64,000 nt of DNA, taken from Candidatus Melainabacteria bacterium. Its GTDB lineage: Bacteria > Cyanobacteriota > Vampirovibrionia > Obscuribacterales > Obscuribacteraceae. A model generated the notes under the pieces. It did no database searches. It was not told the origin of the DNA and saw only the letters and a list, made by a program, of their open reading frames with translations. The DNA lies in the NCBI GenBank assembly GCA_027451745.1, contig DAIDIP010000017.1, forward strand, positions 1-64,000, written 5' to 3'. The position numbers were made by a program, and so were the translations under genes. Shown piece after piece: positions 4,873-26,446 of this stretch (position 1 is the first letter of the stretch; each line of letters starts with the position of its first letter).

Positions 4873-5445
4873 TTATTCAAATAACCCAGGTGGATTATTT
4901 ACTTCAATACGACGGGCCTTAACATCTACAACCGGAAATAGCTGATCCACAAAAGAAACTATCACTGTTTCGCCTTTATTATCATTTACTTTTTTTATTT
5001 CGAGAAATTCGCCATTTTCACCTAGCGCACCACATACGGTACCAATTAATTCGCCTTCAGTTGTAAATACATTCATACCGATTAAATCATCTACCCACCA
5101 CTCATTATTTTTTAATTTTTTTAATTCGTTCTTGGGAGTAAAAATAGCTGCTCCTCTAAAAGGCTCTACTGCGGTGCGCGAACTATATTCTTTTAACTGA
5201 ATTAAAAAACAGTTTTTTGCTATTTTAATCGATTTAACTGTGGCTTGGATATTTTGTTCAGGCTCATTTGCTTTGTTTTTGTATTTAAGCAAAACATTTT
5301 TTATATCAAGAAAAAGGCGCAAATTATTGGAACTAGGTATGACTTTCATGTCACCTTTAAGTCCAACAAAGCTTACTACATCGCCCACGCTCTGGTCGAA
5401 GGCACTATTTTCCAAACGATTTTTACCTGATATTTTAGCTGGCAT
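4873..5445 (-). CDS. rimM: Ribosome maturation factor RimM
   Basis: RimM assists maturation of the 30S subunit, binding near ribosomal protein S19. The 190-residue protein has the two expected parts. The N-terminal RimM barrel carries VGLKGDMKV (usual GxxGLKG motif) at about 27-35. The C-terminal PRC-like barrel begins at EWWVDDLIGMNVFTTEGE and ends in PVVDVKARRIEVNNPPGLFE, close to the canonical ending. Length is near the family norm. It is the last gene of the leftward run that includes the TPR and secretion-like genes, 15 bases after ubiX, rather than lying in the more usual rpsP-rimM-trmD context. Confidence 0.88.
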   Translation of the reverse strand: MPAKISGKNRLENSAFDQSVGDVVSFVGLKGDMKVIPSSNNLRLFLDIKNVLLKYKNKANEPEQNIQATVKSIKIAKNCFLIQLKEYSSRTAVEPFRGAAIFTPKNELKKLKNNEWWVDDLIGMNVFTTEGELIGTVCGALGENGEFLEIKKVNDNKGETVIVSFVDQLFPVVDVKARRIEVNNPPGLFE

Positions 5446-5460
5446 AATTTTGGCCGCAAA

Positions 5461-6090
5461 TCATACTTTGAAAGCTGGCAACGGCCGCTCAACCTGACAC
5501 CAACGCTTAAATAATTGATTATCGAAGTCAAATTGATCCAATACCCGACCGACAACAAAATCTACTTGATCAGCTATAGTTTGCGGTTTATGATAAAAAC
5601 CTGGCGAAGCACAGGACACTATGCCACCAGCTTCAGATACAGCTAGCATATTCTTTAACTGAATATGACCAAAAGGCATTTCTCTTACCACTATCATTAG
5701 CTTACGTCTTTCTTTTAAGCATACTGCAGCTGCTCTGTGTATAGGGTTTTCAGTTAACCCGCCTGCTATCGCGCCTAGTGTGCCAAGACTGCATGGCAAT
5801 ACTGCCATTCCCATTGTTTTATACGATCCACTGGCGACGCTAGAGCCATAATTGCTTAAATTATGCACTATTAATGGTGCTAGAAGTGACAGTCCTAAGT
5901 ATCCCAAAAGTTCAACTTTTAAATTGTCACCCAATGTAAGTCCATTTTCTAACTCCATAACTTGTCTAGCAGCTTTGGAAACCAAAAGCTCAACAGGTTG
6001 TTCTTGTTCAAGCAAATATTGCAATAACCGCAAGCCATAAATAGCGCCACTAGCGCCAGTAATTGCTAAAACAAAAGGTAATTTTTGCAT
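5461..6090 (-). CDS. ubiX: UbiX-family flavin prenyltransferase
   Basis: UbiX/Pad1 proteins prenylate FMN to make the cofactor of UbiD-type decarboxylases. Recognisable features are the N-terminal VLAITGASGAIYGLRLL flavin-binding loop, the central MAVLPCSLGTLGAIAGG, the ERRKLMIVVREMPF segment and the FYHKPQTIADQVDFVVGRVLD ending. From ATG at 6090 it has 209 residues; an in-frame TTG at 6102 adds four. The upstream gene ends at 6103, so the two are practically fused in the transcript. No UbiD partner is in the window. It could serve quinone synthesis or another prenyl-FMN enzyme. Confidence 0.9.
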   Translation of the reverse strand: MQKLPFVLAITGASGAIYGLRLLQYLLEQEQPVELLVSKAARQVMELENGLTLGDNLKVELLGYLGLSLLAPLIVHNLSNYGSSVASGSYKTMGMAVLPCSLGTLGAIAGGLTENPIHRAAAVCLKERRKLMIVVREMPFGHIQLKNMLAVSEAGGIVSCASPGFYHKPQTIADQVDFVVGRVLDQFDFDNQLFKRWCQVERPLPAFKV

Positions 6091-6102
6091 GATCTGTACC
6101 AA

Positions 6103-7047
6103 TTAAAAATTACTATCTTGGTTGTTATTTGGTGGCGTTCTTGCGCCGGTGTTATTAGTCTGTGCTGGTGACGGCGAAGACTGGGAAGGTAGAGACGGAG
6201 GTGGAGAGGATTGTTTTGTTTGTACATCAGGGAATTTATAAGCCGGACCTCTGGCTTTAGGTGTTTGTAACTCCAGAGCAGAAGCTTCGCCTGCTGATGA
6301 GCCTACCCCTATTTTAAAAGGCGCTTCTAAACGGACAGTTAGTGGAGAACCATTATAAATGAATAAATTGCGATTCTTTTTAATAAGCGACCTAAATTCG
6401 GTTTTTTCATCACTAATGCTTCTGTCACGTCCCAATACAGGATCGTTAAGCAATTCGTTTTTAGTCACCACAGATGGTGTACCATTGCGATCATATCTAG
6501 CTTTGCCTGGAACAACTGATTCAAATCCTGTTGGGGTTCCCACATAGGCTACACCTGAGCCTCGAACAGTATTCGAGCCGCTATTATAAGGGTTGTACAT
6601 ACCATATGGATTAACTGCTGTTCTTTCTCCAATTAAAGAGCCCACCATTGGATAAGTCATGCCATCTGGCAGTCTTAAGGCTGTTATTTGTACTCGTAAT
6701 TTTCCAGTAGGTTTTTCTTTTTTTGCATGGGGTACATCTTTAGCCGGTATTGCTTGCACCACTTCTCCCATCACCTCTGCTCCAGCAGGTATTAATACAT
6801 CTGAACCATTGGTTAATAATGGACTGGAAAGAGTAATTCTAAAACTTTCACCCTGTTTGCTAACGGAGGACCCAATAGTGCTCCCAATGCGTCCTTCAAA
6901 AGTAGTGCCAGCAGGAATTACAACTGTGCGACCAGACAGAGTGTCGGGTGCTTTGTAATAAGGACTTACGCCAGGCTGAGCAAAACTAGCTGGTACAGCC
7001 ACAAGAGTTGATAAAATTAGACTTTTAAATTGAGACAACCTTTTCAT
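6103..7047 (-). CDS. Secreted VirB10/TrbI-like protein (tentative)
   Basis: A 314-residue protein with a signal peptide (probable cut after ASFA, about residue 23). The body carries a beta-rich repeat pattern: VVIPAGTTFEGRI near residue 43 and VLIPAGAEVMGEV near residue 84, then LRLPDGMTYPM. Paired IPAG/IPRG motifs followed by a LxLPDG strand are reminiscent of the outer-membrane barrel domain of VirB10/TrbI in type IV secretion. The C-terminal 60 residues are Pro/Ser/Asn-rich and probably disordered. Unlike VirB10 it has no N-terminal membrane anchor, only a cleavable signal. The family assignment is an inference from short motifs. It sits in the leftward operon, divergent from the VirB4/VirB6-like locus. 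Confidence 0.55.
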   Translation of the reverse strand: MKRLSQFKSLILSTLVAVPASFAQPGVSPYYKAPDTLSGRTVVIPAGTTFEGRIGSTIGSSVSKQGESFRITLSSPLLTNGSDVLIPAGAEVMGEVVQAIPAKDVPHAKKEKPTGKLRVQITALRLPDGMTYPMVGSLIGERTAVNPYGMYNPYNSGSNTVRGSGVAYVGTPTGFESVVPGKARYDRNGTPSVVTKNELLNDPVLGRDRSISDEKTEFRSLIKKNRNLFIYNGSPLTVRLEAPFKIGVGSSAGEASALELQTPKARGPAYKFPDVQTKQSSPPPSLPSQSSPSPAQTNNTGARTPPNNNQDSNF

Positions 7048-7049
7048 TT

Positions 7050-7289
7050 TTATTTTTCGTCTACATTGATGTAGTTATTTGGTTTTATGGGTTTCAATTG
7101 TTTTTGCTTGTATTTTACTTGCAAAATAGAAACTGCCGAAGCAACTAATATTATAAGCCATATTGTGATTATGAGTCTGCCAATGCCAAATACTAAGCTT
7201 ATTAGAGCTGGCAGCACAATAGCCAAGGCCGCAATAACGATTATACTGCCTGCTATTACCTGCCAATGCTTTTTCTTTAACACAAACAA
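7050..7289 (-). CDS. Small membrane protein (79 aa)
   Basis: A 79-residue protein with a basic start (MFVLKKKHW) and two hydrophobic spans, about residues 10-33 and 36-57, then a basic Lys/Gln-rich tail. It has no recognised family. It ends two bases before the VirB10/TrbI-like gene begins and belongs to the same leftward run, so it may be a small membrane component of that apparatus. This is inferred from position only. Confidence 0.55.
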   Translation of the reverse strand: MFVLKKKHWQVIAGSIIVIAALAIVLPALISLVFGIGRLIITIWLIILVASAVSILQVKYKQKQLKPIKPNNYINVDEK

Positions 7290-7322
7290 CTTTTTTCTTT
7301 TATCTTAAACAAGACCCTTTAA

Positions 7323-7649
7323 TTACTGGGTATTCAAATATTTGCTAAAGCGATCAATCATAATTTTAGAAACAATATTTTTGCCAAACCAATAAGCTAA
7401 AAAAAGTGAAAGTGGCAAAGCGAATACTTTGATAATTGTTGGAAATAAAGCATAAACAGGACACCAAGCCAAAATAACCCCGCCAATAGTAAGAAGCCAG
7501 CTAAATTTGGCAATTAATTCTTCCTGCTCCGTCCTGGACATATTGCGAAATGCATTGTTTAGCAATTGCAAATAATTAGTCCACAGTCTTTGGACGGTAC
7601 CAAAGGTATCCTTCCAAATTTTACTTTCTTGCAAATTTAACTTAGCCAT
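7323..7649 (-). CDS. Small membrane protein (108 aa)
   Basis: A 108-residue protein with a polar N-terminal half (WKDTFGTVQRLWTNYLQLL, EELIAKFSW) and two adjacent hydrophobic spans at about 49-69 and 70-90. It ends in a basic tail. No family is recognised. It lies 49 bases after the TPR lipoprotein gene and 33 bases before the next small membrane gene in the leftward operon. A role with the neighbouring TPR and VirB10-like proteins is possible but unproven. Confidence 0.55.
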   Translation of the reverse strand: MAKLNLQESKIWKDTFGTVQRLWTNYLQLLNNAFRNMSRTEQEELIAKFSWLLTIGGVILAWCPVYALFPTIIKVFALPLSLFLAYWFGKNIVSKIMIDRFSKYLNTQ

Positions 7650-7698
7650 AAGCTTATTACCTTTGTCGTTTGCAGTTTTCCCCGGAGTGTACTTTCCT

Positions 7699-9522
7699 TT
7701 ATTCGTCGCTTTCTTTTTTCTCTATTTTAAGACGTTTTTGTAATCTACTGATTGTATCTTCTACTTCTTGTCGTTGATTATTATTATCATCAGCAGCTTC
7801 TAAAAAACATAAACCATTTGCTATCGCTAATTTTGGATTGCCTTTGCGGGCTTTGGCAAATATCGAATAAAGACCATAATAAGCACTTGGATACTGCGGA
7901 TCAGCAATTAAGGCCTGTTTATAATGATCGATAGCAACATCTGGTAGTTTCCAGGTGGCATCGCCTAATTTTGTTTGCCTAGCGGCTTCATTACGTTGAG
8001 TAGTAATTTTGCTTATGCCTTGTTCAGCGCGCGGAGCTACTTCGGGAATTTCTTTAGCATAGCCATAAGCTTGTTCAGCAGCAGTTAAATCACCATCATT
8101 GAATGCTTGTTCACCTAAAGTGATTAATCCATAGGGATCGTCTTTATGATTGTCAATAATGCTGGTAAAGCGTTTTCGCGCATCTCTAAAATGGTTTTTT
8201 GCTAACGATTTTTCTGCTTCCGAAAGTTCTATGCTCTCTTGCAAACCTTTTGCTCCAGGTTTAATTACTTCACCCCGTACTGATTGCTCACTAACAATAT
8301 TTTGTAATTGTTCCATGAGCTGATGCCATTCTGGTGGGTACTGCCCATCACGACGAGCTTTGCGAAAATAGACCCGAGACAAGCCCAATAAACCCTGAGC
8401 ATCTTCTGAGTTAGCAGCCAATATGGTTCGATATTCTGCTTCAGCCACATCAAGCTTGTCTTGACGTAAAGCAAGCTCTGCTAATTGATTACGAAGGGCT
8501 AAATCATTAGGCAAAATTTCTAGAGCATTATGCATTTCAGAAATTGCCAATTCTCCATCGCCTCGCAAAGTGTGATATTCAGCCAAACGTCTATAAGGTT
8601 CAGGGTTGCGAGGATCTTGGCGAATTGCTTCTTGCCAGGCTGCTAAGGCGGCCGGTCCATTGCCTTGCTTGCGATAAACATCACCATTCACCAAATGCCA
8701 ATCAGGTGTTCTATTAGCTTCTGGCACACTATGCAATTTCATATAGGCATCTTCGTTCTTACCCTTTTGCAGTAAAACCAAAGCTTGTTGTACATAAGCT
8801 GGATAATATTCAGGTTTTTGCTGTAAAGCTTTGTCTAAAAGCGAACTTGCTTCAGTATCTTTAGGATCAGTCCGCAAAAGAGCTTGAGCAAGCAATGTAA
8901 GATTTATTGGATCATCAGTTAAGGCTGCTGCTTTACGTAATGGATCAATTGCTTCGGCTGCTTCATCTTGAGCTAGCCGAGCTAGTCCCAAAGTTTGTTG
9001 AGCAACGACAATATCAGGATTAGCTCGAGCGGCTTTTGCACATAATGAATCTGCTGCTTCTAAATACAAGTCGCGTCGCGCTGGTGAAGCTACGCTTTTT
9101 GAATGTACATATGATACATAACCTCCGGCAGCCAGTACGTTGGGATTGTCTTCAAATCTGTCTCTTGCTCGCCTTAACACTTTTTCTGCTTCAAGAATTT
9201 TGACTGGTGTGCCTTGCTTTGCTAGAGCTACCGCCAATCCAGAAAGCGCATCACCTGTAGTATCACTGTCTGACAAATCTCGATAAATATCTTCAGCATC
9301 TCTATACTTATTTTCTAGCAATAGCTGATCTGCTTCAGCTATATCAGGAGGCTGTGCAGTTGCTAATTGTTTGTTTCTGGTTCTATTTGTTTTTCCAAAA
9401 GCAGGCAGCTGGTAATTACTTAGCTCTCCAATTAAAAGGCAGCCAGAAAGTAAAAGCAAAGGAAAAATCCATTGTTTCTTTTGAAATGGCTGTATTTTGT
9501 TAATTGGCTTTATCAAGTTCAT
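7699..9522 (-). CDS. TPR-repeat lipoprotein (607 aa)
   Basis: The N-terminus has a basic region, a hydrophobic stretch and a lipobox LLSGC with Cys at about residue 28, so it is probably a lipoprotein. After NYQLPAFGK follow many tetratricopeptide repeats across most of the chain, for example WHLVNGDVYRKQGNGPAALAAWQEA and PYRRLAEYHTLRGDGELAISEMHNA. TPR arrays bind partner proteins. Its first 23 bases overlap the upstream TPR gene, which suggests translational coupling. The signal region resembles that of the TPR protein at 35162 (LLSGC then YQLPxF). The function is unknown; a periplasmic scaffold is the simplest reading. Confidence 0.8.
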   Translation of the reverse strand: MNLIKPINKIQPFQKKQWIFPLLLLSGCLLIGELSNYQLPAFGKTNRTRNKQLATAQPPDIAEADQLLLENKYRDAEDIYRDLSDSDTTGDALSGLAVALAKQGTPVKILEAEKVLRRARDRFEDNPNVLAAGGYVSYVHSKSVASPARRDLYLEAADSLCAKAARANPDIVVAQQTLGLARLAQDEAAEAIDPLRKAAALTDDPINLTLLAQALLRTDPKDTEASSLLDKALQQKPEYYPAYVQQALVLLQKGKNEDAYMKLHSVPEANRTPDWHLVNGDVYRKQGNGPAALAAWQEAIRQDPRNPEPYRRLAEYHTLRGDGELAISEMHNALEILPNDLALRNQLAELALRQDKLDVAEAEYRTILAANSEDAQGLLGLSRVYFRKARRDGQYPPEWHQLMEQLQNIVSEQSVRGEVIKPGAKGLQESIELSEAEKSLAKNHFRDARKRFTSIIDNHKDDPYGLITLGEQAFNDGDLTAAEQAYGYAKEIPEVAPRAEQGISKITTQRNEAARQTKLGDATWKLPDVAIDHYKQALIADPQYPSAYYGLYSIFAKARKGNPKLAIANGLCFLEAADDNNNQRQEVEDTISRLQKRLKIEKKESDE

Positions 9523-11362
9523 CTGCTTTTTTGTTTTCTTTATCTGCCTCTTTTGTATTACCCAATTGTTTTAATGCTGCTGCTAATTTGCGATGTACTA
9601 TGGGTAAATTTGGAGCCAATGATAGAGCATCTTTTAAATTAGCAGCAGCCATAACCCAATTACCTTGCTTGCTTGCTATATCTGCCTCTTTTAACATAGG
9701 TTGTACCCGCGAACTGTCTATTTGATCTAAAGCAGTTTTAGCTTCACCTTCTTTTAGATAGGCCGCTTGGCGATAAGCCACAGAAGCACTGTCTAAATCA
9801 CCTTTTTTCTCTGCAATACGTCCTAATAAAAGCCAGCCTTTGCCATTGCGCGGATCTTTTTCAACCAGTCCAGAAGCAACCTTATCTGCACCGTCTAAAT
9901 CATTGGTGCGCATTTTATTTTCTATTTCAGCTATAGCATTCATCCTATTAAGCATATCGCTTCCCGCAGTTGGATTCGATGTTACCGTTGTTCCTATGGG
10001 TAAAGGACTGCTACTTCCAAGTGGACTTTGCGTGCTGGCAATATTTTGTGCAGGTGTGCCTACTGTCGGGCTGCCTTTGCCTGCGGCAACCGCAGTATTT
10101 TGGGGTATGTGACCACCATTAATTAAACTGGCAATACGATCTTTTAAATCCGGAAAAATAAGAGGATTTATAGCCGCCGCTGCTTCAAAAGCTTTCAGCG
10201 CCTGATCTCGCTCTCCTTGCGCTTCTTTACCACGCCCGTATATATACAATAATTCAGCATCATCCGGAGTTTGTTTTAAAGCATCTTCTATTTTTTGCAC
10301 AGTAGAAGCAAGAATTACTGGTGAGCGCGGATGACTTACAACTGCCAAATGAAAACTGCGTCTGGCGGCTGATAAAGTTGGATTATTCTTGTCAATTTTC
10401 CAACATGCTTCGTACTCCATTTTTGCCCGATCATAATCACCTGATAACTGATAGGCGCCTGCGAGCATCAAATGATTATCAAAAGAGGGGCGAATCGCTA
10501 CAGCTTCACGGGCAATATCAGTAAGTCCTGATATTGCGTCAGTATTAAGTGGATTCAAAGTCACAGCTCTTCTGTATTCAATGCCCGCATTTTGCAAACG
10601 TTTTAAAGCTCGGTCCAAATCGCCCCTATCTCTAGCTTTAATTGCAAACTCTTTTAGTATTTCTCCTAATTGCCGGTGACAATCAGCCAAGTCATTTTTC
10701 TCGCTATCTGGCCACTGTTTAGCAACTGCAGTTTTAAGTTCTGAAAATCCTTCTACAACTTTGCCTTGTTTAAGTAAAACCCTCCCTAGTCTTGCTCTGA
10801 CGGGGCCGGTATCGCTCATCATCACACATTTGCGATATTCGACTATAGCAGTTGTATAATTTCCGGCTATATCGGCATCGTCGGCAATATGCATACGAGT
10901 AGCAAGGTCATTTTTGTGCAATGTTTTTTCTACTAAAGCATCTAAGGCTTGATCTGCTTCAGCATTACTTGGGTCAACATAAAGAGCTTCACGATAATGA
11001 GTCATTGCTTCATACATTTTGCCTTTGCTGGCTAATTGCCGGGCATAGAGCATTTGAGCACTAGATAAATTAACCCGAAATTGATGATTCTCAGGGTCGG
11101 CATTCAGCGCTAATTCATGTTCATGTATAGCGGCTTGCCAAAGCCCTTTGCCACCCAATTCGACACCCCGATTATTATGCTCAATAGGTGTTCTTGGTTC
11201 TGGTGTACTTAAAGTAACAGCGCTTCTTGCTGGCGCTTGCGTCTTCTTGACAGTCGTTTTGCTTTCAGCAACAAAAGGTCCTATAGTCGGCGATATAGCC
11301 GACGAATATAGCAAGCAAAGCGACAATGATATTGAAAATTTGGGCAAATTAGTCTTTTTCAT
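9500..11362 (-). CDS. TPR-repeat secreted protein (620 aa)
   Basis: This begins with a signal-like segment (MKKTNLPKFSISLSLCLLYSS), then a Pro/Thr-rich stretch and TPR motifs from about residue 60, such as HNNRGVELGGKGLWQAAIHEHELALNADP. A Ser/Thr/Pro/Gly-rich linker at about 410-460 separates the N-terminal array from three or four C-terminal repeats. It is the first gene of the leftward run and overlaps the next TPR gene by 23 bases. The 331-base region upstream is shared with the divergent secretion-like locus. No enzymatic domain is seen, so it probably acts as a protein-binding scaffold outside the cytoplasm. Confidence 0.8.
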   Translation of the reverse strand: MKKTNLPKFSISLSLCLLYSSAISPTIGPFVAESKTTVKKTQAPARSAVTLSTPEPRTPIEHNNRGVELGGKGLWQAAIHEHELALNADPENHQFRVNLSSAQMLYARQLASKGKMYEAMTHYREALYVDPSNAEADQALDALVEKTLHKNDLATRMHIADDADIAGNYTTAIVEYRKCVMMSDTGPVRARLGRVLLKQGKVVEGFSELKTAVAKQWPDSEKNDLADCHRQLGEILKEFAIKARDRGDLDRALKRLQNAGIEYRRAVTLNPLNTDAISGLTDIAREAVAIRPSFDNHLMLAGAYQLSGDYDRAKMEYEACWKIDKNNPTLSAARRSFHLAVVSHPRSPVILASTVQKIEDALKQTPDDAELLYIYGRGKEAQGERDQALKAFEAAAAINPLIFPDLKDRIASLINGGHIPQNTAVAAGKGSPTVGTPAQNIASTQSPLGSSSPLPIGTTVTSNPTAGSDMLNRMNAIAEIENKMRTNDLDGADKVASGLVEKDPRNGKGWLLLGRIAEKKGDLDSASVAYRQAAYLKEGEAKTALDQIDSSRVQPMLKEADIASKQGNWVMAAANLKDALSLAPNLPIVHRKLAAALKQLGNTKEADKENKKADELDKAN

Positions 11363-11693
11363 CTTCTTATTTTGTATTTTCTATTTATGTTCCCCATAAG
11401 ACTGTTAGCTAGCTTACAGTTTTTCCTTTTCGCATGCTATTTATATTGACAATGAAGGCTAAACCATTAACAATTAATCATCTGTTTGGCTGCCAAACTA
11501 GAAAAAGAAAAGCAATATACCAGGGGGGTTTTACTTTTTCTATTTCATAATCGACGTGTGGGATTCTGAGCATATATCTTCCATTCAAGGCGTTAACTTA
11601 CTAAATTAATTGGATTGTGCCAGAAGCTTTTAGCCAGACTATATAGGCTAAACAAACGGATCTAGATGCATAATATTTATTAGGGGGTGTGCA
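11363..11693. promoter_or_regulatory. Divergent intergenic control region of the TPR and secretion-like operons
   Basis: This 331-base gap separates two divergent gene runs and should hold promoters for both. TTGACA at 11446-11451, with AACAAT 17 bases later, is a fair sigma-70 candidate in the plus direction. At 11484-11498 there is a perfect inverted repeat GTTTGG, CTG, CCAAAC, which may be an operator or RNA hairpin. A run of six G lies near 11523, and GGGGGT precedes the ATG at 11694. No gene is seen inside. Confidence 0.4.
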
Positions 11694-12626
11694 ATGCGCG
11701 GAGCCTGTCCATCAATATTCAAAGCTTGTACGATATCAAAACCATCTTTGTCTGTTGCCAGTGTCATTGCTTGGGCAAGCATTTTGAATATGGGATTACC
11801 GGTTTGCGCCCAGCTTCCTCAAACTAATATGGGCCAATTTGTTCATCAGCCCGGCGACAATCAATACACTTCTCAAATTCAATCTGAACGTCACGGACCA
11901 GCTCCTTCGCCTATGGTTCCTGTTGTGTCTGCTCCACCTGCTTTTGCAAACAGCAGCTATACGCCGACTCCTGCAGCCCCAAAACCAGACATATCTCTTT
12001 TGCCTATAGTTGCCGATGAGCCGATCAAGCCGGCTGGTTTCCCCCCTTTGCCAGATAGACTTGATTTACCTGCAAACGGATCTGGTGTTTGGTCTGGAGC
12101 TGGGCAAAGAATAAATGATTCTGATGCAAATGGCGCTAGTGGGACAGGTATTGATCGCAATCCAACTGGCGTACATCAGCACTATATTCACTATAATTCC
12201 GGCGCTTTTATGCCCAATAGTGCTGCGCCGCAAAATAATTACAGACCAAATAGTGCTGATTATTACAATATTAATCCTAATGCCCGTGCCAATATGGCTG
12301 CACCTATTAATGCAATAGCTGCTCCCCCTGTGGATACTCCTAGTGAGCAAGCTCTTAAGCGAATGGGTCCTGAACCTCAATTAGCTGGAGACGCAGTAAC
12401 AAGACCTGAAGCACCAACTGCGGTGACAGTCAATCAAAGTGTTAGCCAGGATTTGTCATTGCCAGAAGATGATTTTAACAAGCACTATCCCACTAATATT
12501 GGCAATTCTTCAGGAAATAGAGCAGCCAAAGGTGTTGCTCGTACGCTTGCTTACCCATTGCGTTCAGTGCTCTATACAGGAGCTAGTATGGCTACTTATG
12601 GAGCAATGTATGCAGTAAGACGCTAA
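11694..12626 (+). CDS. Secreted Pro/Ala/Asn-rich protein, first gene of the secretion-like locus
   Basis: A 310-residue protein with a hydrophobic N-terminal segment ending near VCAQ (about residue 40), probably a signal peptide. Most of the chain is low-complexity, rich in Pro, Ala, Asn and Ser, and likely disordered. The C-terminus (about 275-310) is ordered-looking and partly hydrophobic (YPLRSVLYTGASMATYGAMYAVRR). No family is recognised. GGGGGT supports the ATG. It opens the plus-strand run that leads to the VirB6-like and VirB4-like genes, and so may be an accessory envelope part of that apparatus. Confidence 0.6.
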   Translation: MRGACPSIFKACTISKPSLSVASVIAWASILNMGLPVCAQLPQTNMGQFVHQPGDNQYTSQIQSERHGPAPSPMVPVVSAPPAFANSSYTPTPAAPKPDISLLPIVADEPIKPAGFPPLPDRLDLPANGSGVWSGAGQRINDSDANGASGTGIDRNPTGVHQHYIHYNSGAFMPNSAAPQNNYRPNSADYYNINPNARANMAAPINAIAAPPVDTPSEQALKRMGPEPQLAGDAVTRPEAPTAVTVNQSVSQDLSLPEDDFNKHYPTNIGNSSGNRAAKGVARTLAYPLRSVLYTGASMATYGAMYAVRR

Positions 12627-12678
12627 CAAAAACAAACTGCGCCACACCGTAAAATAAGGAAAAGAAGAACAGAAGATC

Positions 12679-13389: not shown

Positions 13390-13404
13390 AGGTTACTGCC
13401 AAAA

Positions 13405-15405: not shown

Positions 15406-15417
15406 GAAGGAGGAAGT

Positions 15418-18153: not shown

Positions 18154-18175
18154 GCCAAGTAAGAGAATAAATACT

Positions 18176-21100
18176 ATGATAGCCATACTGACAAACCAAC
18201 AATTGAATTTTGCTGAAACGCTAAAAAGAGCTAGCGTTCCAAAATTAATCTGCATAAGATTGACGGTGTCTGTGCTAATGTCCCTGGTTTTTATTTCACC
18301 AAGCTATTCACAAAATAGCGGCGGATCTATTAAAAGCTACAATCAATCTGCAGCAGGCGTTCAAGCGCAATACACGCCTTGGCAAATTCGTAAAGACTAT
18401 TTAGATCAACATCCCGATGTGAAAAAATACGCCGAAGCCCAAATGCAGTCTAGAACTGGTGGAGGCGGTGGTGGCACAGGTGCTAGTGGCGCTGACGGTA
18501 GTATGACTGGAACTGGTAGTTCAATGAACTCTAATGGTGTAAAAGCGCAGCCTACTGGACCTCGTGAAATTCCTTATGGCTGGGTGGTACCAACACCTGG
18601 AACTGGCACAATGTCCCTAAAGCAAGATTCACTTAGTAAACCATTTTTTGATGCGATCGAGAGTAAAATAAACAACTCAAACCAAATGGGTGCTGGACCA
18701 TTAACCTCAGCTGAATCCTTAGCTAATTCAGCTGCCGTAGCCAAAGTTAAAAGTGACTTTGAAGGCGACCCAGATAATTTCACTAAACCAGCCGCAGCCG
18801 TTGCCAGCTCGCTTTCTACTTCTGCTGCTAATAGCATGGCGGGTGCTGCAGTTAGCCAGGCAACTGGCGCTATAGAATTCACAAGACATTATTTAGTTAA
18901 CTTTACTGCTCAAGCTGGTAGCAGTTGGCAATCTTTGCGCAATCATTTGTTTATTCCGATTGCTATTTTATTATTGCTTCCAGGAGCAGTACTGGCTCAA
19001 GTAAGAGCCATTGTTGCTCAAGGTTCGCCAATTTTGGGTGAAGTAAATCCTTTTGAAGGTATCACCCGTTCAATAATTGCTATTTTTATGATTCCTGCTT
19101 CTTTTTTAGTAGTGAATTATGGCATTGACGTAGCTAATTCGCTTACTTATTCAATTTCTACCGAATATTGGAATTTATTTCATACAGATATGTATCAGGA
19201 TGCTGAATGTGCTGAAATGCGGGCGTTTCCTGTAAACGGACCCAATCAGAATTTTAATGCCTTTTTGCCTGTCCCATTTTTTTTGCCTCCAGTTATGATG
19301 GATCCCTGGAGTATGTTTGAATCAACAGGCGTGGCTAATAAGCTTTTTGATCCTTGTGCTGGTCTTAATATATCCAATGTTGCTGATGAACAATCAAGCC
19401 CAACTATGAATACTAATCGTATGGCGATGAATGGTTCCAATGCATTTTTGGCTATGACTTGGAATATTATGTGTGCCTTTCAGACAGTATTTTTATATTA
19501 TTTGTGGTGTATGGGTCCAATAGTTGCAGCCTTGTGGGTCTGGCCTATGGAAAGACTGCGCAGTGCACTTCCCAGTTGGATTGAAGGTGTAATTACTTTA
19601 TGTTTCTGGAGCCTTTTTTGGAATGTGGTTGTATTACTCATGGCTTGCTTTAGAGGTGTATCTGAAACAGGCACCGTAATAATGACCGCCTTAAATGGTT
19701 TGGCGACAATTTCTGTTTGGTACGCTTTTGACTTTAGTGCCTTAGTTAGTGAAGGTGCTGGTTATTCTATGATGAATGCTATTAGCTCGGCTATGAGAAG
19801 TGGTGGTGGTGGTGGTGGTGGTGGCGGAGGCGGTGGTGGCCAACAAAAATCCGCTGGTGGTTCGGCGCAACAATCTGCTGGTGGACGTGGAGCCGGTGGT
19901 ATGTTAGGTGGTATGTTGGGCGGAGCTAATGCTCCAGCTATGGCAGGACATCCTGGAGGAACTGGTGTTTTTTCTACCGCTTCAACAGGTTCAATCAGTA
20001 CTATGGGCTCAGGTGCTAATTTAGCAATTGGACCGGGCGCTATGGGAGGAGTATCGGGACTAGCTCCTAGTGGTGGCGGCGCAGGTGGAATCGGCTTGCC
20101 TATGATTAGCTCGTCATCATCAGGAGCAACAATAGGTGGACCTAGCTCTAATCTTTCAGCTTTCAATGATGCTGTTAAGAGCGAATATAATAATCGTGGG
20201 CTTAATAGTATGACTACTGATCAAATGGCAGCTGCGCAAACAAGAGTTGCCGAAATGAATAAAGTAGCCCAGCAAGAATCTCAGCAGCGTGCTCTTCAAC
20301 AAGGTCAAATGATGCTTGCTGATTATGCAAGATCGCATGGTGCTGATATGTCATCTATGTTTGGCTCGCAAAACCCACAAGCAAAAGCAGCTGAACAAGC
20401 AGCACATAATATGACAGTAGCTCAATTTACTTCACAAGCCTCACAAGCTCAGCAGCAACAATTTGCTGCCTTAATGAATGCTAGTGCCCATCAAAAACCT
20501 GGTGCAGATTTGCCGCCTTCGGCTATAAGAGATATCGCTTCTATTTCGCCTGCAGCTAGTGGAGCACCTGGTATGGCTGGGACACCAGATTTTGGTTCGT
20601 TAACTCTTGGCATAGCTAGTCTTGGTGCAGCTGATGCAGCTGTTGGAGTACCTACAACTTTTGTTCCAGCAGGATCAGGAGCTGATTTCAGTGCCGGTGG
20701 ACTTTCTGGACCACCACCGCTCGAAACAACCACTACGTATACAACTGTTCCTGGTGATATAACAACTTCAGACACTTATGTGCCAGCACCAACTGATACA
20801 GTAATGAGCAGCGATGATGCTGGCTATCAAAGTTATCAGACTGCGCCTGAAACTTATACTACAGCCTCAGCTGATGTGGATCCTGGTCATGTGTATAGAT
20901 CAGAACAGTCTCTATCTGTTGATTGGTCAGCAGCAAGCATGAACAATATGGCAAGAGAATCTAATATTGACTATTCGCAAAATGTTCAAAATGCTCATAT
21001 GCCATATGGACAATCACCGCCTCCAGCGCAAAGTACTGAGTATGTAGTACAAAATAGCCAACCTGTGCCTGAGCAGCAACAAGTGCAATATATGCCTATG

Positions 21101-21535
21101 GAAGTTAAACAAGAAAAGATTGAGGTGCAACAAGCTCCGCAAGAAAAGCATGAAGTATTCATTTATCAACAGCCCCAGCCTCCCAAACCGCCAGTTAAGC
21201 CAACTACACAAAAACGTGTGGACAATGTAAATCCAATATTCGCATCACCGCCTGTGGTGCCAAAGTCTAATAGTATTTCATCCGTGCTGGCTGGTTTGCA
21301 ACCTGGTATCAAGCCTAATGAAAATCAATTAGGCAGGCAATCTAATGCCGAGGCACCAACAGAAGAACAAGCCAAAGATTTGCCACGCACAGAAGGAAGT
21401 CTAGCAGAACATTTTGGTAGACTACAGCGTGGTGGTGGACGTAGTGCACCGTCTTCAAAGGAAATACTTGGTGACTCAGAACTGCCACCCAATGTTGATG
21501 AGAATACTGAAGATCCTGAAGAAAAGGACAGTTAA
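18176..21535 (+). CDS. Large VirB6/TrbL-like polytopic membrane protein (1119 aa), paralogue of the preceding gene
   Basis: A probable signal peptide (to about residue 46, SYSQ) is followed by a Gly/Ser-rich stretch. The first membrane block (about 258-330) reads IPIAILLLLPGAVLAQVRA and PFEGITRSIIAIFMIPASFLVVNYGIDVANSLTYSI. A second block (about 421-528) has LWCMGPIVAALWVWPMERL. Both match the 911-residue neighbour in order and spacing. A run of about 13 Gly begins near residue 543 (GGT/GGC codons, about 19800-19840). The last 550 residues are Gly/Ala/Gln-rich, then Pro/Gln-rich, probably disordered and possibly exposed. Encoding two VirB6-like paralogues side by side suggests a heteromeric channel. 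Confidence 0.7.
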   Translation: MIAILTNQQLNFAETLKRASVPKLICIRLTVSVLMSLVFISPSYSQNSGGSIKSYNQSAAGVQAQYTPWQIRKDYLDQHPDVKKYAEAQMQSRTGGGGGGTGASGADGSMTGTGSSMNSNGVKAQPTGPREIPYGWVVPTPGTGTMSLKQDSLSKPFFDAIESKINNSNQMGAGPLTSAESLANSAAVAKVKSDFEGDPDNFTKPAAAVASSLSTSAANSMAGAAVSQATGAIEFTRHYLVNFTAQAGSSWQSLRNHLFIPIAILLLLPGAVLAQVRAIVAQGSPILGEVNPFEGITRSIIAIFMIPASFLVVNYGIDVANSLTYSISTEYWNLFHTDMYQDAECAEMRAFPVNGPNQNFNAFLPVPFFLPPVMMDPWSMFESTGVANKLFDPCAGLNISNVADEQSSPTMNTNRMAMNGSNAFLAMTWNIMCAFQTVFLYYLWCMGPIVAALWVWPMERLRSALPSWIEGVITLCFWSLFWNVVVLLMACFRGVSETGTVIMTALNGLATISVWYAFDFSALVSEGAGYSMMNAISSAMRSGGGGGGGGGGGGGQQKSAGGSAQQSAGGRGAGGMLGGMLGGANAPAMAGHPGGTGVFSTASTGSISTMGSGANLAIGPGAMGGVSGLAPSGGGAGGIGLPMISSSSSGATIGGPSSNLSAFNDAVKSEYNNRGLNSMTTDQMAAAQTRVAEMNKVAQQESQQRALQQGQMMLADYARSHGADMSSMFGSQNPQAKAAEQAAHNMTVAQFTSQASQAQQQQFAALMNASAHQKPGADLPPSAIRDIASISPAASGAPGMAGTPDFGSLTLGIASLGAADAAVGVPTTFVPAGSGADFSAGGLSGPPPLETTTTYTTVPGDITTSDTYVPAPTDTVMSSDDAGYQSYQTAPETYTTASADVDPGHVYRSEQSLSVDWSAASMNNMARESNIDYSQNVQNAHMPYGQSPPPAQSTEYVVQNSQPVPEQQQVQYMPMEVKQEKIEVQQAPQEKHEVFIYQQPQPPKPPVKPTTQKRVDNVNPIFASPPVVPKSNSISSVLAGLQPGIKPNENQLGRQSNAEAPTEEQAKDLPRTEGSLAEHFGRLQRGGGRSAPSSKEILGDSELPPNVDENTEDPEEKDS
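19800..19842 (+). repeat. GGN trinucleotide run encoding polyglycine
   Basis: Repeated GGT codons with a few GGC and GGA interruptions, inside the 1119-residue VirB6-like gene. Being in multiples of three, length changes would alter the polyglycine length without breaking the frame. Whether it varies between strains cannot be seen here. Confidence 0.6.
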
Positions 21536-21543
21536 ATATTTCC

Positions 21544-22170
21544 ATGCATTTAGCCCAAATTGCCGTTAAATGTCCACGTTGTGGCTCTAGATTTAACTCC
21601 AAGCAAGTACCGGTTTGGGTTGATATTGGCGTTCGCAATAGTGAGTTGAGACAAGACTTTGAAGGGAAAGCCCCTCAACCTGAACCCCATGCAATTTGTA
21701 CCTGCCCTGCTTGTGGAAAGGCTGACTGGATGGCGCAATTTCCTGCCACTAATGAAGAAGCAGTTTTAAGCCAATCACCATTGACGGCCCATCTGCAATT
21801 TCGCAATGCCGCTATTCAAGCCGAGCAATTAGTCAAAGATTTTTATAACGCCGGTATTTTTTATCTTTATGCCGCTTGGTGTGCTGATGATAATAAAGCT
21901 TATCCGCAGGCTCGCGAATATAGACATCATGCGATTCAAGCTTTCACTAAGTCTTTGCAAGATGTCTCTTGCCCGGTTAAAGAAAGACCGACAGTGGAAT
22001 ATTTAATTGGCGAATTATCAAGACGAACTGGTGATTTTAGTGCTGCCCAAGCACATTTACAAGAGGTGTTGCCGCGATTGCCTGGTAAACTAGCTTATAT
22101 GGCTCGAAAAATTCTAAAATTATCTGCCGAAGGCAATATGGAAATTGATAAATTTGAGTCACCAGTTTAA
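21544..22170 (+). CDS. DUF2225-type protein with zinc-binding Cys pairs
   Basis: A 208-residue protein whose N-terminus has two CxxC pairs (CPRCGSRF near residue 11 and CPACGKADW near 57) flanking VDIGVRNSELRQDF and PEPHAICTC. This is the pattern of the DUF2225 family, which has a zinc-ribbon-like start and a TPR-like helical body. The C-terminal half here (about 90-200) is helical with TPR character (REYRHHAIQAFTKSLQDV; GDFSAAQAHLQEVLPRL). The family's function is not established. It lies nine bases after the second VirB6-like gene and before the PrgI/VirB3-like gene, so it is probably co-expressed with the secretion-like proteins. Confidence 0.75.
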   Translation: MHLAQIAVKCPRCGSRFNSKQVPVWVDIGVRNSELRQDFEGKAPQPEPHAICTCPACGKADWMAQFPATNEEAVLSQSPLTAHLQFRNAAIQAEQLVKDFYNAGIFYLYAAWCADDNKAYPQAREYRHHAIQAFTKSLQDVSCPVKERPTVEYLIGELSRRTGDFSAAQAHLQEVLPRLPGKLAYMARKILKLSAEGNMEIDKFESPV

Positions 22171-22196
22171 AGCATCTGCTCCAAGGGTAACGCTCA

Positions 22197-22577
22197 ATGG
22201 CTATAGTGCATAAAGTAATTGTTTTAAATAAACCATTTAAGCTTTTTGGCTTCACTATTTTTCAAGGAATAGCTCTAGTTTTTGCTGCTTTGCTTGGTCT
22301 ATGGGTAGGCACCTCTATGCCAGCGATTAAAGTTAATGGTATTCCTATTGGTATCTGGTCTTTTATTCTGATTACCTCGGGTGCTATCGTACCTATATAC
22401 GCCTTGCAAATTAAACCGTGGGCTTGGTGGCGAAACCGCGTTCTATCGTTAGCAAAATTGCTTCCCAGTGAGATTTTGCCCAAACCTGAGGCACCGACGA
22501 CATATTTAGAGGGAGTGTCCAAAGAGAAAAGTAAATTGCCTAATCCGACAGGCAAGGATCCAAAATGGCAATTATAA
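22197..22577 (+). CDS. PrgI/VirB3/TrbD-like small membrane protein
   Basis: A 126-residue protein with a short polar start (VHKVIVLNKPFKLFGFT), two adjacent membrane spans at about 20-41 and 48-70, and a basic soluble tail (KPWAWWRNRVLSL). Size, two-span topology and position directly before the VirB4 ATPase are those of VirB3/TrbD or PrgI proteins, which anchor VirB4 in the inner membrane. Sequence similarity in this family is low, so the assignment leans on topology and order. Confidence 0.68.
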   Translation: MAIVHKVIVLNKPFKLFGFTIFQGIALVFAALLGLWVGTSMPAIKVNGIPIGIWSFILITSGAIVPIYALQIKPWAWWRNRVLSLAKLLPSEILPKPEAPTTYLEGVSKEKSKLPNPTGKDPKWQL

Positions 22578-22643
22578 TACTTATACGACTTTGTTATTAA
22601 CTATCAAAAATGTCAAAAATATCCGACTTATCGAGAACCAATT

Positions 22644-25418
22644 ATGACCGGTAGTATGAGATCTACTGAAACCGATAAATTACCTCTCACAGCCGAGCCG
22701 TCTTGGCAAAATATCGTTGCTGGCGTATACAACAGTTTGCCAGAGTCCCTACGCCGACAAATACCAGCACACCAGCTTGCCAAAAAGTATTGGCCATCTA
22801 ATTCTGGATTGGCGACTAAACCAACTAATTCAGACAATGGTTCTAACAATGAAGCGCCGCAAGAAGGACCACCGGCCGATAAAAGGGGCGATAGCGATTG
22901 GACCGATATTTGTTTTATTTATGATATCCCAGGTGATGATGAGGAGGAAGGAACAGTAGTTCTAGCTGATGGTAGTTTGCGCAAATACATTGCTTGTAAG
23001 GGTATTAACGCTTTACTGTTCGATGAGGCAGACTGTGAGTCATTAGCCCGAAATTTCAAAGAATTTGCCAATTCCTGTGAATCGGATGTACAAATTATTG
23101 TCAAATCCCGTAATTTGCCGGTAGATGAGTATTTGTCTCGTTATCAAAATCAAGTCAGTTCTGAAAATGAATATTTAAAATGGTATGCCAGAAACACAGA
23201 TCAATGGTTCAGGCGTGTACAAGATGTACATTTTGTTCCGCAACGAGATTTTTATGTGGTTATTAGTTATACGCCGCCAGATACAACAGATATTGCTAAT
23301 GATATTTGGTCAACATTGTATAACCATATTTCTTCAACTAATTCATGGGCAGGCAAAAGAGCTCCAGAAAAACACGAAGAATTTGTTGAAACTTTAAATC
23401 GCTATACTCGCACAGCTTTTGAGCAATTGAGACAATCCAATTTGCGCCCTCAAATACTGAAACGCAAAGAAGTAAGAGATCTGATATATGGAGATTTAAA
23501 TCCAGGTTTAGTTAAAAAAGATCCAAAAGCACCCCCTAGCCGCTCGGATCTTTCCGAGGCATCCTGTTTAGCACAATCGGCTATCAAAATAGAAAACGAT
23601 TACCTTTGGATGGATGGACGTTATGTTGGCACTCATTATATGGCGCAGCCACCACATGAAACTTGGATGGGCTGGTTAGTTGACCTGCTCTCGTTAAGCG
23701 TTGAATATACTTTGTCCATTTTTATCCACACTTGCAATCAAGACAAAGTGCGTAAATCTTTGACCAGTAAATATAGATACGGTGTTATGGCTAGCACTCA
23801 ATTAGGCACAACTCCAGATCTTGAAGGCATAGAGTCAACACGCAGTGCCGCATCTGCTATTCAAGAATTTTTGCGCAGCTCAAATAAAGCTTTTGATCTA
23901 AGTATGTACATAAGCACGGTTGCTGAAACGGAAGAAAAACTCACTCAGCAAATGGATGAAATTAGACGTGTATTTAAAAATCGTGGTGCTATTATGGACC
24001 GTGGCCAGCTTTTACAGTTGGATGCCTGGCAATCAACTTTGCCAATTGGTGTAGATAAACTTGCTATAGTTCATCAAGTTATGTCACCTATTGTTGGCAC
24101 TTTCTGGCCTTTCTTTAGCGCTAGTTGTGGAACTCCAGATGGTGTACCATTTGGTTTTGCTCTTACTTCTCGTGAGCCAGTACTGCTTAACCCATTTTAT
24201 CGGGGAGCAGGAAAAGATGCTAATAATATGTTTGTTGTTGGTACAACCGGAGCTGGTAAATCATTTGCTATTTCAATGTTGATCTTGCGCCTTTTACCAA
24301 TTGGCACACGATTTGTTCTTATAGATAAAACAGTTGATAAATATGGAGCCTATAGATTCATAACGCAATTGTTAGGACCTGAATTGAGTGCTTATATTGA
24401 TCTTGGTCCTAATTCTGGATTTATTCTTAATCCATTTGATTTGGGTCCAGAAGATAAACCTGGCGAACCATCTGCCGATAAAATAAGCACTTTACTTTCC
24501 TTGCTTGATCTTATGCTTGCTCCAGAAGGGCGTGAAGAATTAACTGTTGAAGAAAAATCATTGCTTGATGGCTTAATTCGTGTTGCCTATATGGATGCCA
24601 ATTTCCGCAGCACTGTGCCAACAATGTCCGATTTGGCTAGAGTAACAGCCCAAGCTGCTTCGGATGAAGTAGATCCCTTGCAGCGTGATCGTTTACAGCA
24701 ATTTGCTCGTGGTCTTTCACTATATACGCGTTCAGGAGCATTTGGTGGTCTAGTAGATGGTTATACAAACGTGGACGCCGAAAAATTATTCATTGTTTTT
24801 GATACAAGAGAAGTTAATGAACCACGTTTAGAGCGTATCAGTGTATTTATTCTTGCTGAATTTATAAGAAGACGAGCCGCTGAGTATAAAGAAAGACGTA
24901 TCCGCTTTGCTGCTGTAATAGACGAAGCCGCGATGCTTATGCGCTTTAAAGCAGGGGCTCGGCTATTGGACGATCTTTCTAGACGAGCTAGACATTACGG
25001 TATGATGCTTGTTTCGATTACTCAGCAGTTGAAAGACTTTTTTCGTCAAGCAGAACAAGCTGATTCTGTCGTGAAAAATTCGCATATGAAATTAATTTTG
25101 CGCCAAGATCCAAGTGATTTGAAAGTATTAAAAGAAACACTTAGACTTTCTGATGCTGAAGTATCAGCAATTGATAATTTTTCTAGAGACGAAGAAAAGC
25201 GAAAAGATAGCCAATGTTTGTTAATTGTCGGAGCAAGTCACGGCACTATTAGACTTGTGCCAAGTCCTATGGACTATTGGATTTGTACATCAGAGCCAAT
25301 CCATGATATTCCTCGCAGAATTGAAAAAATCAAGGAAGTGCAAGAAAAAAATCCGCAGCTGAATCAATGGGATGCGGCTCGACAAGCTGTTTATTACTTA
25401 GGATTAAGTCACGAGTAA
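22644..25418 (+). CDS. VirB4/TraC-family secretion ATPase
   Basis: A 924-residue ATPase that would energise substrate transfer or pilus assembly at the inner membrane. The C-terminal half has the Walker A loop GTTGAGKSFA (about residues 532-541), a Walker B-like AAVIDEAAML (about 756-765), and the downstream ARHYGMMLVSITQQLKDF and KNSHMKLILRQDP segments typical of VirB4/TraC proteins. The N-terminal half carries the family's CagE/TrbE-like region (YGVMASTQLGTTPDLEG, WQSTLPIGVDKLAI). This is the firmest marker that the locus is type IV secretion-related. It is the only ATPase of this system in the window. Confidence 0.9.
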   Translation: MTGSMRSTETDKLPLTAEPSWQNIVAGVYNSLPESLRRQIPAHQLAKKYWPSNSGLATKPTNSDNGSNNEAPQEGPPADKRGDSDWTDICFIYDIPGDDEEEGTVVLADGSLRKYIACKGINALLFDEADCESLARNFKEFANSCESDVQIIVKSRNLPVDEYLSRYQNQVSSENEYLKWYARNTDQWFRRVQDVHFVPQRDFYVVISYTPPDTTDIANDIWSTLYNHISSTNSWAGKRAPEKHEEFVETLNRYTRTAFEQLRQSNLRPQILKRKEVRDLIYGDLNPGLVKKDPKAPPSRSDLSEASCLAQSAIKIENDYLWMDGRYVGTHYMAQPPHETWMGWLVDLLSLSVEYTLSIFIHTCNQDKVRKSLTSKYRYGVMASTQLGTTPDLEGIESTRSAASAIQEFLRSSNKAFDLSMYISTVAETEEKLTQQMDEIRRVFKNRGAIMDRGQLLQLDAWQSTLPIGVDKLAIVHQVMSPIVGTFWPFFSASCGTPDGVPFGFALTSREPVLLNPFYRGAGKDANNMFVVGTTGAGKSFAISMLILRLLPIGTRFVLIDKTVDKYGAYRFITQLLGPELSAYIDLGPNSGFILNPFDLGPEDKPGEPSADKISTLLSLLDLMLAPEGREELTVEEKSLLDGLIRVAYMDANFRSTVPTMSDLARVTAQAASDEVDPLQRDRLQQFARGLSLYTRSGAFGGLVDGYTNVDAEKLFIVFDTREVNEPRLERISVFILAEFIRRRAAEYKERRIRFAAVIDEAAMLMRFKAGARLLDDLSRRARHYGMMLVSITQQLKDFFRQAEQADSVVKNSHMKLILRQDPSDLKVLKETLRLSDAEVSAIDNFSRDEEKRKDSQCLLIVGASHGTIRLVPSPMDYWICTSEPIHDIPRRIEKIKEVQEKNPQLNQWDAARQAVYYLGLSHE

Positions 25419-25425
25419 CGCTACT

Positions 25426-25827
25426 ATGGAAAAGATATTTTCCTTTAACAAGTTTTTTCTGTTTTTTTGTGCGGTGTTTATTCTGGAGTGGATAGCTTTG
25501 CAAGTGGTAGGCTATATGCGTTTGACGAGTATGGCAAAGGTAGATGGGGAGAGAATCCTAGCTTGGCAATGGCCGTATAAACAAATTAGATCTGTTGTTG
25601 AAATTCATGACACAAAAATTCTAAAGCGGGATGCCAATGACGCTACGGTAAAAGTATTAGCTAAACAATCAATTCAGCCCATAACAGGTGGACCCATAGT
25701 TACCACAACACCAGATACTGTTTTGCTTTTCCCGCCTCAAACTAAAACAAATACACAATGTACTGCTACGTTGACTTATTATCGAACAAATTCTCAGTGG
25801 TTTTTGGGTAAAGTAGAATGCCAATGA
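25426..25827 (+). CDS. Small membrane-anchored protein after virB4-like gene (133 aa)
   Basis: It has an N-terminal hydrophobic segment (residues 8-30) and a soluble domain of about 100 residues with strand-like sequence (TATLTYYRTNSQWFLGKVECQ). Two Cys residues near the C-terminus could pair if the domain is periplasmic. No family is recognised. Only seven bases separate it from the VirB4 stop, so it is very probably in the same transcript. Confidence 0.6.
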   Translation: MEKIFSFNKFFLFFCAVFILEWIALQVVGYMRLTSMAKVDGERILAWQWPYKQIRSVVEIHDTKILKRDANDATVKVLAKQSIQPITGGPIVTTTPDTVLLFPPQTKTNTQCTATLTYYRTNSQWFLGKVECQ

Positions 25828-25873
25828 ACGATTATTTTGATAGACTACCAGTCGAGCTACCGGAGCAGTTCTA

Positions 25874-26446
25874 ATGTACTGGCGTATTCGCAAATATGGA
25901 CCTCTTGATCTTTTGAAAAAATATGGCTTGCATATTTTTCTCATCTTCAGCGTTCTCTTCAATTTTTTGTTAATAGTAACAAGACCGAATTTAAAAAAAG
26001 TCATTACTACGGATGTAAAAAGTCAGCTTGAAACTTTCGCCAAACAAGTTGCTACTCACATTCTTGATACCAGCTATATTTCTTACGGGGCAGCAACTTC
26101 AGCACTTCTCGATACTACCAATGGCGAACTCGATCTACCGGTGATAGGCGAATTACGCCGCCAGCAACTTTTACCTACTAGTGCCGAAGAATTAAAAGCC
26201 AATATTCAAACTTACACTAGTCAAAAGCGCGTAGTGGCCATTCGAATAGATAATGTTAGCACAGGTGAAGCGGTTGTTGTAAACGGAGCTAGCTTGATAC
26301 CTATTGATGTTTCTGGGGTTGTAGCGGTACATTCAGCGGACGAAGCTGGACCACCAAGTCCTTTTCATTTTCAATTCCTTATGGGCTACAGAGGTGGTAA
26401 TACACAAACGCCACTTGTAGCAAGCTTTAAAGATTTATCGGGATAA
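25874..26446 (+). CDS. Membrane-anchored protein, possibly VirB8/TraE-like (190 aa)
   Basis: A short cytoplasmic start is followed by one membrane span (about 18-37) and a periplasmic domain. The helix SQLETFAKQVATHILDTSY followed by alternating strands (VVAIRIDNVSTGEAVVVNGASLIPID) resembles the layout of TraE/VirB8 proteins, with their NTF2-like fold. The similarity is topological, so this is tentative. It is the last gene of the plus-strand secretion-like run, 160 bases before ribE. Confidence 0.5.
   Translation: MYWRIRKYGPLDLLKKYGLHIFLIFSVLFNFLLIVTRPNLKKVITTDVKSQLETFAKQVATHILDTSYISYGAATSALLDTTNGELDLPVIGELRRQQLLPTSAEELKANIQTYTSQKRVVAIRIDNVSTGEAVVVNGASLIPIDVSGVVAVHSADEAGPPSPFHFQFLMGYRGGNTQTPLVASFKDLSG

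Follow-up and report, generated by a model that had tools for sequence, protein, structure and literature searches.

A two-locus type IV secretion-like system, probably a vertically inherited core trait of Obscuribacterales

What could a type IV secretion system (T4SS) serve for when its genes keep one chromosomal site across two families of bacteria and no relaxase of the families searched stands beside them? The question is raised by a divergent locus in a stretch of 64,000 nucleotides (the window) on contig C17 of a Candidatus Obscuribacterales genome (G000; 3.0 Mb, 76 contigs, 96.5% complete), whose non-photosynthetic host belongs to Melainabacteria, phylum Cyanobacteriota. The initial annotation had listed two TPR proteins, two small membrane proteins and a VirB10/TrbI-like secreted protein on the minus strand, and three exported proteins, two VirB6-like proteins, a DUF2225 protein, a VirB3/PrgI-like protein, VirB4 and a possible VirB8 on the plus strand; all are present, VirB8 being recognised by its predicted fold (Table 1). 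We consider it probable that this locus and a second, smaller one jointly encode a dedicated, vertically inherited and non-conjugative T4SS-like machine, a core trait of Obscuribacterales. Its job may tentatively be placed in contact-dependent or extracellular protein export rather than in conjugation.

The plus-strand ATPase is clearly a VirB4 from its Pfam, NCBIfam and PDB sequence matches: it hits P-loop_TraG (E 2.5e-17) and TraC_F_IV (E 2.7e-11), and its residues 513-850 match the solved VirB4 structure 4ag5 (E 2.8e-17). It remains below the NCBIfam equivalog cut-offs for TraC-F (195.5 vs 567 bits) and for CD1110 VirB4 of the MPF_FATA/monoderm type (198.7 vs 325 bits), and the top matches listed from 72,556 plasmid records are merely 21-24% identical. 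The nearest relatives of this protein belong to named Candidatus Obscuribacterales or Melainabacteria genomes.

A second TraC-like protein was found on contig C14 in a whole-genome search. It belongs to a second locus that encodes, in this order, VirB6 (765 aa), a DUF2225-like protein (281 aa), VirB3 (112 aa), VirB4 (943 aa), a 204-aa protein and VirD4 (1014 aa). The VirD4 is above the cut-off of PF02534 (E 1.9e-17) and has an intact P-loop. The 204-aa protein is VirB8-like by profile comparison, because its profile matches TraE of the F plasmid (E 6.8e-5) and a protein of a Myxococcus plasmid whose VirB4 is related (E 1.1e-6). The lack of VirD4 reported in the initial annotation therefore holds for the window locus but not for the system, and the argument against conjugation drawn from it is not supported, as a VirD4 with intact P-loop is present in a second fixed locus with paralogous VirB3, VirB4, VirB6 and VirB8. 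In a VirB4 tree the window (locus-1) and locus-2 groups each form a firm clade; their joint placement (95/91) is not claimed, given the long branches.

The order of VirD4, the 204-aa protein, VirB4, VirB3 and the DUF2225 protein is kept in all 18 order relatives fetched, and the locus-2 VirB6 was recovered in most of them, being cut by the end of the stretch or not detected in the rest. Of 30 order relatives, 27 have VirD4; it was not found in G026 and in two genomes that are 65% complete, G003 and G020. None of 15 genomes of other orders has a VirD4 of this type. The locus-1 VirB4 has a counterpart of roughly 70% identity or higher in 37 of 38 order relatives, all but G001 (71% complete), and the locus-2 VirB4 is present in 35 of the 38. 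No close homologue of the locus-1 VirB4 was found in other orders of the class, and none of its type in an even draw of 291 further Cyanobacteriota genomes. One coupling protein and two ATPase modules of the inner membrane are co-inherited.

The position of the window locus is equally stable. In eight relatives read across it, the left flank is the flavoprotein in every case, the right flank is ribE-ribBA in six within the stretch read, and the component set is nearly complete in all. The recurrence of the locus is far beyond chance, because both gene order and chromosomal site recur across two families. Pairwise distances of the two VirB4 proteins correlate with each other (r 0.92, 17 genomes) and each with those of the riboflavin enzyme RibBA (r 0.84, 14 genomes), and the mean identity is 0.77 for all three alike. 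Walker A and Walker B-like motifs are kept in all full-length open reading frames (ORFs), that is 83 for locus-1 VirB4, 19 for locus-2 VirB4 and 19 for VirD4, some of them being the same gene counted twice. This is the pattern that strong purifying selection leaves on a core machine. Synteny, distribution and co-divergence thus support the view of the initial annotation that the system is chromosomally fixed and no ordinary conjugative element. As evidence for such an element it had named a relaxase/VirD4 module with integrase and att sites just outside the window: neither locus has a PF03432 or TrwC relaxase beside it (other relaxase families were not searched), and no integrase or att-like context was seen in the flanking genes scanned.

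Further VirB4-like genes occur in the genomes compared. Three large-genome members (L091, L094 and G033:C99:10792-13278) carry an extra VirB4 (59-64% identity) unaccompanied by the other locus genes, and G004, G025, G026 and G033 have a shorter third VirB4-like type of 658-719 aa. In a class relative of another order, L124:5169-7679 encodes a VirB4-like protein with a weak N-terminal match to PrgI (VirB3), possibly a VirB3-VirB4 fusion.

Identification of VirB8 and of the VirB10-like domain needed structure, because PDB sequence searches with profiles of both VirB8 proteins, VirB10, VirB6 and the lipoprotein gave no usable match; PHROGs returned none either. The AlphaFold2 (AF2) model of the window VirB8 has a pLDDT of 89.3, and its top Foldseek ranks are DotI and TraM. 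In a second-look alignment its best 25 chains are all VirB8, TraE, TrwG, DotI, TraM or relatives (Z 14.6-10.8, with 14.6 to 2bhm), and these outrank the first unrelated NTF2-like fold, which confirms VirB8 at the level of the modelled fold. The secreted protein at 6103-7047 matches PF03743 under the cut-off (E 8.5e-4). Its AF2 model has uneven confidence, good in the beta-rich parts only; the first 24 Foldseek matches are all VirB10-type outer-membrane-core proteins, and the model matches the C-terminal domains of CagY, ComB10 and VirB10 (Z 11.6 for CagY vs 3.9 for the first unrelated chain). The predicted structure confirms that this protein carries the fold of the VirB10 C-terminal domain; no inner-membrane anchor helix was seen in a topology scan. 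A strong homologue is present in 29 of 31 order members. Structure matches, on which the initial annotation had staked its reading of VirB6, VirB8 and VirB10, were thus obtained for VirB8 and the VirB10 C-terminal domain, whereas VirB6 is linked by profiles and gene position only.

By themselves, the two window VirB6-like proteins match no family. Their profile finds the locus-2 VirB6 at about 1e-9, the two families align at 94% in hhalign, and one locus-2 member matches TrbL_4 (E 1.4e-4); hhalign against TrbL of the integrative and conjugative elements (ICEs) of this genome gave no match, with just two sequences on the ICE side. Profile links, topology and gene order make both proteins likely VirB6. 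Versions in relatives can be much longer, up to about 2200 aa for VirB6b and 2335 aa for the locus-2 VirB6, with tails rich in Ala, Gly, Ser and Gln. The two-helix protein ahead of VirB4 is likely VirB3 from its topology, position and profile links: hhalign gives 63% with the locus-2 VirB3, and a weak match (E 0.0037) is to an ORF before TraC on a Thermus plasmid. VirB4, VirB8 and VirD4 thus qualify as T4SS components, and VirB3, VirB6 and VirB10 are likely ones. DUF2225 proteins belong to both loci (E 1.2e-14 for the locus-2 paralogue), although not detected in locus 1 of every relative; the literature searched holds no link between DUF2225 and type IV secretion. Alignment of the lipoprotein shows that its lipid Cys is invariant and that a coiled-coil stretch and the C-terminal beta domain are conserved; with an OEP-like match (E 0.0039), it is a candidate part of the outer core.

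The arrangement of the VirB6 pair varies in some genomes. On G023:C6 (L108:15369-19931, L143:569-5518) an extra pair of locus-1 type lies convergent to the locus-2 VirD4, besides the pair in locus 1, and physically links the two loci. In L073 (G033) and L086 the pair is gone from locus 1 and the remaining genes are kept; in G033 it was not found beside locus 2 either, and in these genomes it may have moved or been lost.

In the machine that we propose, the VirD4 encoded on C14, the sole one of the system, would select the substrate and deliver it to either or both of the VirB3/4/6/8 inner-membrane translocons. VirB8, the lipoprotein and the VirB10-like domain would then carry it over the periplasm and outer membrane, standing in for the missing VirB7 and VirB9; the small membrane proteins would join the latter two in the outer path, and the very long hydrophilic VirB6 tails might act at the channel or at the cell surface. 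We favour protein as the exported substrate, because VirD4 is retained and a relaxase is not. With some hesitation, we suggest that this could be a diderm T4SS of a new class, in which two paralogous inner-membrane translocons share one VirD4, the outer part lacks VirB7, VirB9, VirB2 and VirB11 and is made from a coiled-coil lipoprotein, an anchor-free VirB10 domain, TPR proteins and giant-tailed VirB6, and DUF2225 is a new component.

Several points weigh against a single dedicated export machine. That the two loci form one machine we infer from shared distribution, co-divergence and paralogy. Outside two ICEs on contig C1, sequence searches did not find VirB9 (PF03524), nor a VirB2 pilin by PF18895 and PF04956, nor a free VirB11, and because of this the outer part is a guess. 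The protein at 6103-7047 may not act as VirB10, because VirB10-CTD-like secreted proteins form a multi-copy family which is also present in class genomes without this VirB4. This family is widespread in Vampirovibrionia (e.g., G043:C18:7778-8152 and G000:C3:97726-98043). The absence of VirB11 pointed out in the initial annotation is real outside the two ICEs but carries little weight: to our knowledge, F-type and monoderm T4SSs also dispense with it, as do ComB systems. The two full T2SSE ATPases outside the ICEs of this genome both stand beside TadB/TadC-type T2SSF pairs; as members of the two Tad-type pilus loci (L139 and L140, on G000:C31 and C16), neither was accepted as VirB11.

The two ICE-like elements on C1 are of Trb type (L035, 66000-85999, and L036, 150000-169999), each with VirB4, VirB9, a TrbC pilin and VirB11, and with PF03432 relaxases nearby (C1:51418 and C1:148383). 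The one scanned has its own VirB11, VirB8, TrbI and VirD4, and an integrase lies beside L035. VirB4 of the PF03135 type (CagE_TrbE_VirB) was found in the C1 ICE proteins only. A tie between these elements and the window locus was rejected, as they are separate, with VirD4, VirB11 and VirB9 of their own.

Uptake of DNA is an alternative that we regard as unlikely. In a ComB-like system, VirB4 would drive a pseudopilus or channel bringing double-stranded DNA into the periplasm, and ComEC would take it into the cytoplasm. ComB of Helicobacter pylori is a T4SS without VirB11, VirB5, VirD4 or relaxase that uses ComEC (PMC12857230), and the window locus likewise lacks the first three; ComEC is present in 29 of 30 relatives searched, this genome included, ComB10 is among the structural matches of the VirB10-like protein, and G000, G001 and G036-G038 yielded no full-length PilB/PilT-type type IV pilus ATPases, which most family members have. 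However, locus 2 keeps a VirD4, and this genome has two Tad pili. ComEC is also retained where this T4SS is absent, in class genomes such as G042 and G047, and these two lack full PilB as well. Moreover, ComB has VirB2, VirB7 and VirB9 and no VirD4, whereas here VirD4 is in locus 2, and VirB2 and VirB9 were not found.

Another possibility is a domesticated conjugation machine for the export or exchange of chromosomal DNA, its relaxases being supplied in trans. The presence of VirD4 speaks for it, and PF03432 relaxases do occur away from both loci in 18 of 40 genomes searched. We judge it quite unlikely: these relaxases are patchy in the order, and several members with both loci, such as G012 and G036 (at least 90% complete), carry none; TrwC relaxases were absent from all 38 genomes searched, other relaxase families not being covered. 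Distinctly improbable, in our view, is a surface pilus or adhesin-like structure that translocates no substrate, as proposed for Bartonella Trw; the giant hydrophilic VirB6 tails, the Gly-rich and low-complexity exported proteins and the TPR proteins would fit it, but there is no pilin family match, and VirD4 is conserved and intact. A conjugative or integrated element, intact or decayed, is highly improbable and was rejected as contradicted by synteny, distribution and co-divergence: although parts of the system descend from conjugation machinery and true ICEs reside on C1, site and gene order are constant across two families, VirB4 diverges along with RibBA, neither an integrase nor a relaxase of the families searched was found in the flanking genes scanned, and the ATPase motifs are intact.

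Among described systems, the closest analogue of the proposed export machine in organisation appears to be rvh of Rickettsiales, which is chromosomal, vertically inherited and split into islets, with duplicated VirB4 and VirB8, several VirB6 and a role unknown when it was described (PMC2653234); some Rickettsiales VirB6 proteins also have unusual C-terminal extensions (PMC7648143). The window system shares the duplicated VirB4, VirB6 and VirB8, the split loci and the vertical inheritance. It is nevertheless no member of rvh. Its VirB4 is of another family (TraC/CD1110-like, outside the rvh-type PF03135), and the searches found for it none of VirB9, VirB11, VirB2 and VirB7, all of which belong to rvh as a VirB/D4 (T-type) system. 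Furthermore, only one VirB4 copy keeps the conserved features in Rickettsia, while both do here, and DUF2225 proteins are present in both loci, unlike in rvh.

The T4SSs of Patescibacteria are likewise chromosomal, mostly without relaxase and presumed non-conjugative, with a VirB3/VirB4/VirB6/VirD4 core (PMC12102498), and the window system resembles them in site, poverty of relaxases and core. Their VirB4 groups with the monoderm (FATA) class, while the window VirB4 is under both the CD1110 and TraC-F cut-offs, and the present system, unlike that of Patescibacteria, resides in a diderm that has VirB8 and a VirB10-CTD protein. F-type (MPF_F) systems share a TraC-like VirB4, the lack of VirB11 and the TraE match of the locus-2 VirB8, but the TraC-F cut-off is missed and neither locus has TraF/H/N/U/W. 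In the same bacterial class, Vampirovibrio chlorellavorus has a T4SS of T-type (TrbE), encoded on plasmids and on a single contig, tied to its predation of algae (PMC4451040) and proposed, as here, to act on another cell; its VirB4 belongs to a different family. No report of a system such as the present one in Obscuribacterales or Vampirovibrionia was found in the literature searched. If our reading is correct, a core, vertically inherited secretion machine is shared by an entire order of non-photosynthetic bacteria related to cyanobacteria, about whose dealings with other cells very little is known, and comparison with the split and duplicated rvh of an unrelated group may show why lineages fix T4SSs and double their inner-membrane parts.

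Table 1 Features of the window locus and its flanks
Feature	Position	Strand	Remarks
RimM	4873-5445		Housekeeping neighbour, outside locus proper; family scan
Flavoprotein	5461-6102		Housekeeping neighbour, outside locus proper; family scan
VirB10 C-terminal-domain-like secreted protein, 314 aa	6103-7047	-	Signal peptide, without inner-membrane anchor
79-aa two-helix membrane protein, TTG start	7050-7289	-	Conserved; speculative pilin/VirB2 candidate
108-aa two-helix membrane protein	7323-7649	-	Conserved
Exported TPR protein, 607 aa	7699-9522	-	TPR families; 56-64% identity in relatives
Exported TPR protein, 620 aa	9500-11362	-	TPR families; 41-51% identity in relatives
Divergent intergenic region, 331 bases	11363-11693	strandless	Putative promoter region
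Exported low-complexity protein, 310 aa	11694-12626	+	Conserved
Exported Gly-rich protein, 236 aa	12679-13389	+	Conserved
Lipoprotein, 666 aa	13405-15405	+	Lipobox; candidate VirB7/VirB9 stand-in (inferred)
VirB6-like polytopic protein a, 911 aa	15418-18153	+	Seven hydrophobic segments; profile link to locus-2 VirB6
VirB6-like polytopic protein b, 1119 aa	18176-21535	+	To about 2200 aa in relatives
DUF2225 zinc-ribbon/TPR-like protein	21544-22170	+	PF09986 E 4.1e-13; paralogue in locus 2
VirB3/PrgI-like two-helix protein	22197-22577	+	Position before VirB4, topology, locus-2 VirB3 link
VirB4/TraC ATPase, 924 aa	22644-25418	+	Walker A GTTGAGKS; Walker B intact
133-aa membrane-anchored periplasmic protein	25426-25827	+	Conserved
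VirB8 (by predicted fold), 190 aa	25874-26446	+	AF2 fold match
Riboflavin genes (ribE-ribBA)	from 26564		Right flank

The initial annotation began the locus too early, at 4873, and so took in RimM and the flavoprotein; its shared separating region of 331 bases was exact. In relatives this divergent gap measures 261-442 bases in nine of ten cases and 502 in the tenth; promoter-like sites within the 331 bases are no more frequent than chance. Gaps of 7 to 66 bases separate the plus-strand genes, a spacing like that of a single operon. The 79-aa ORF with a TTG start was detectable only with a lowered ORF cut-off, and a two-helix ORF occupies the same position in all eight relatives covering that stretch.

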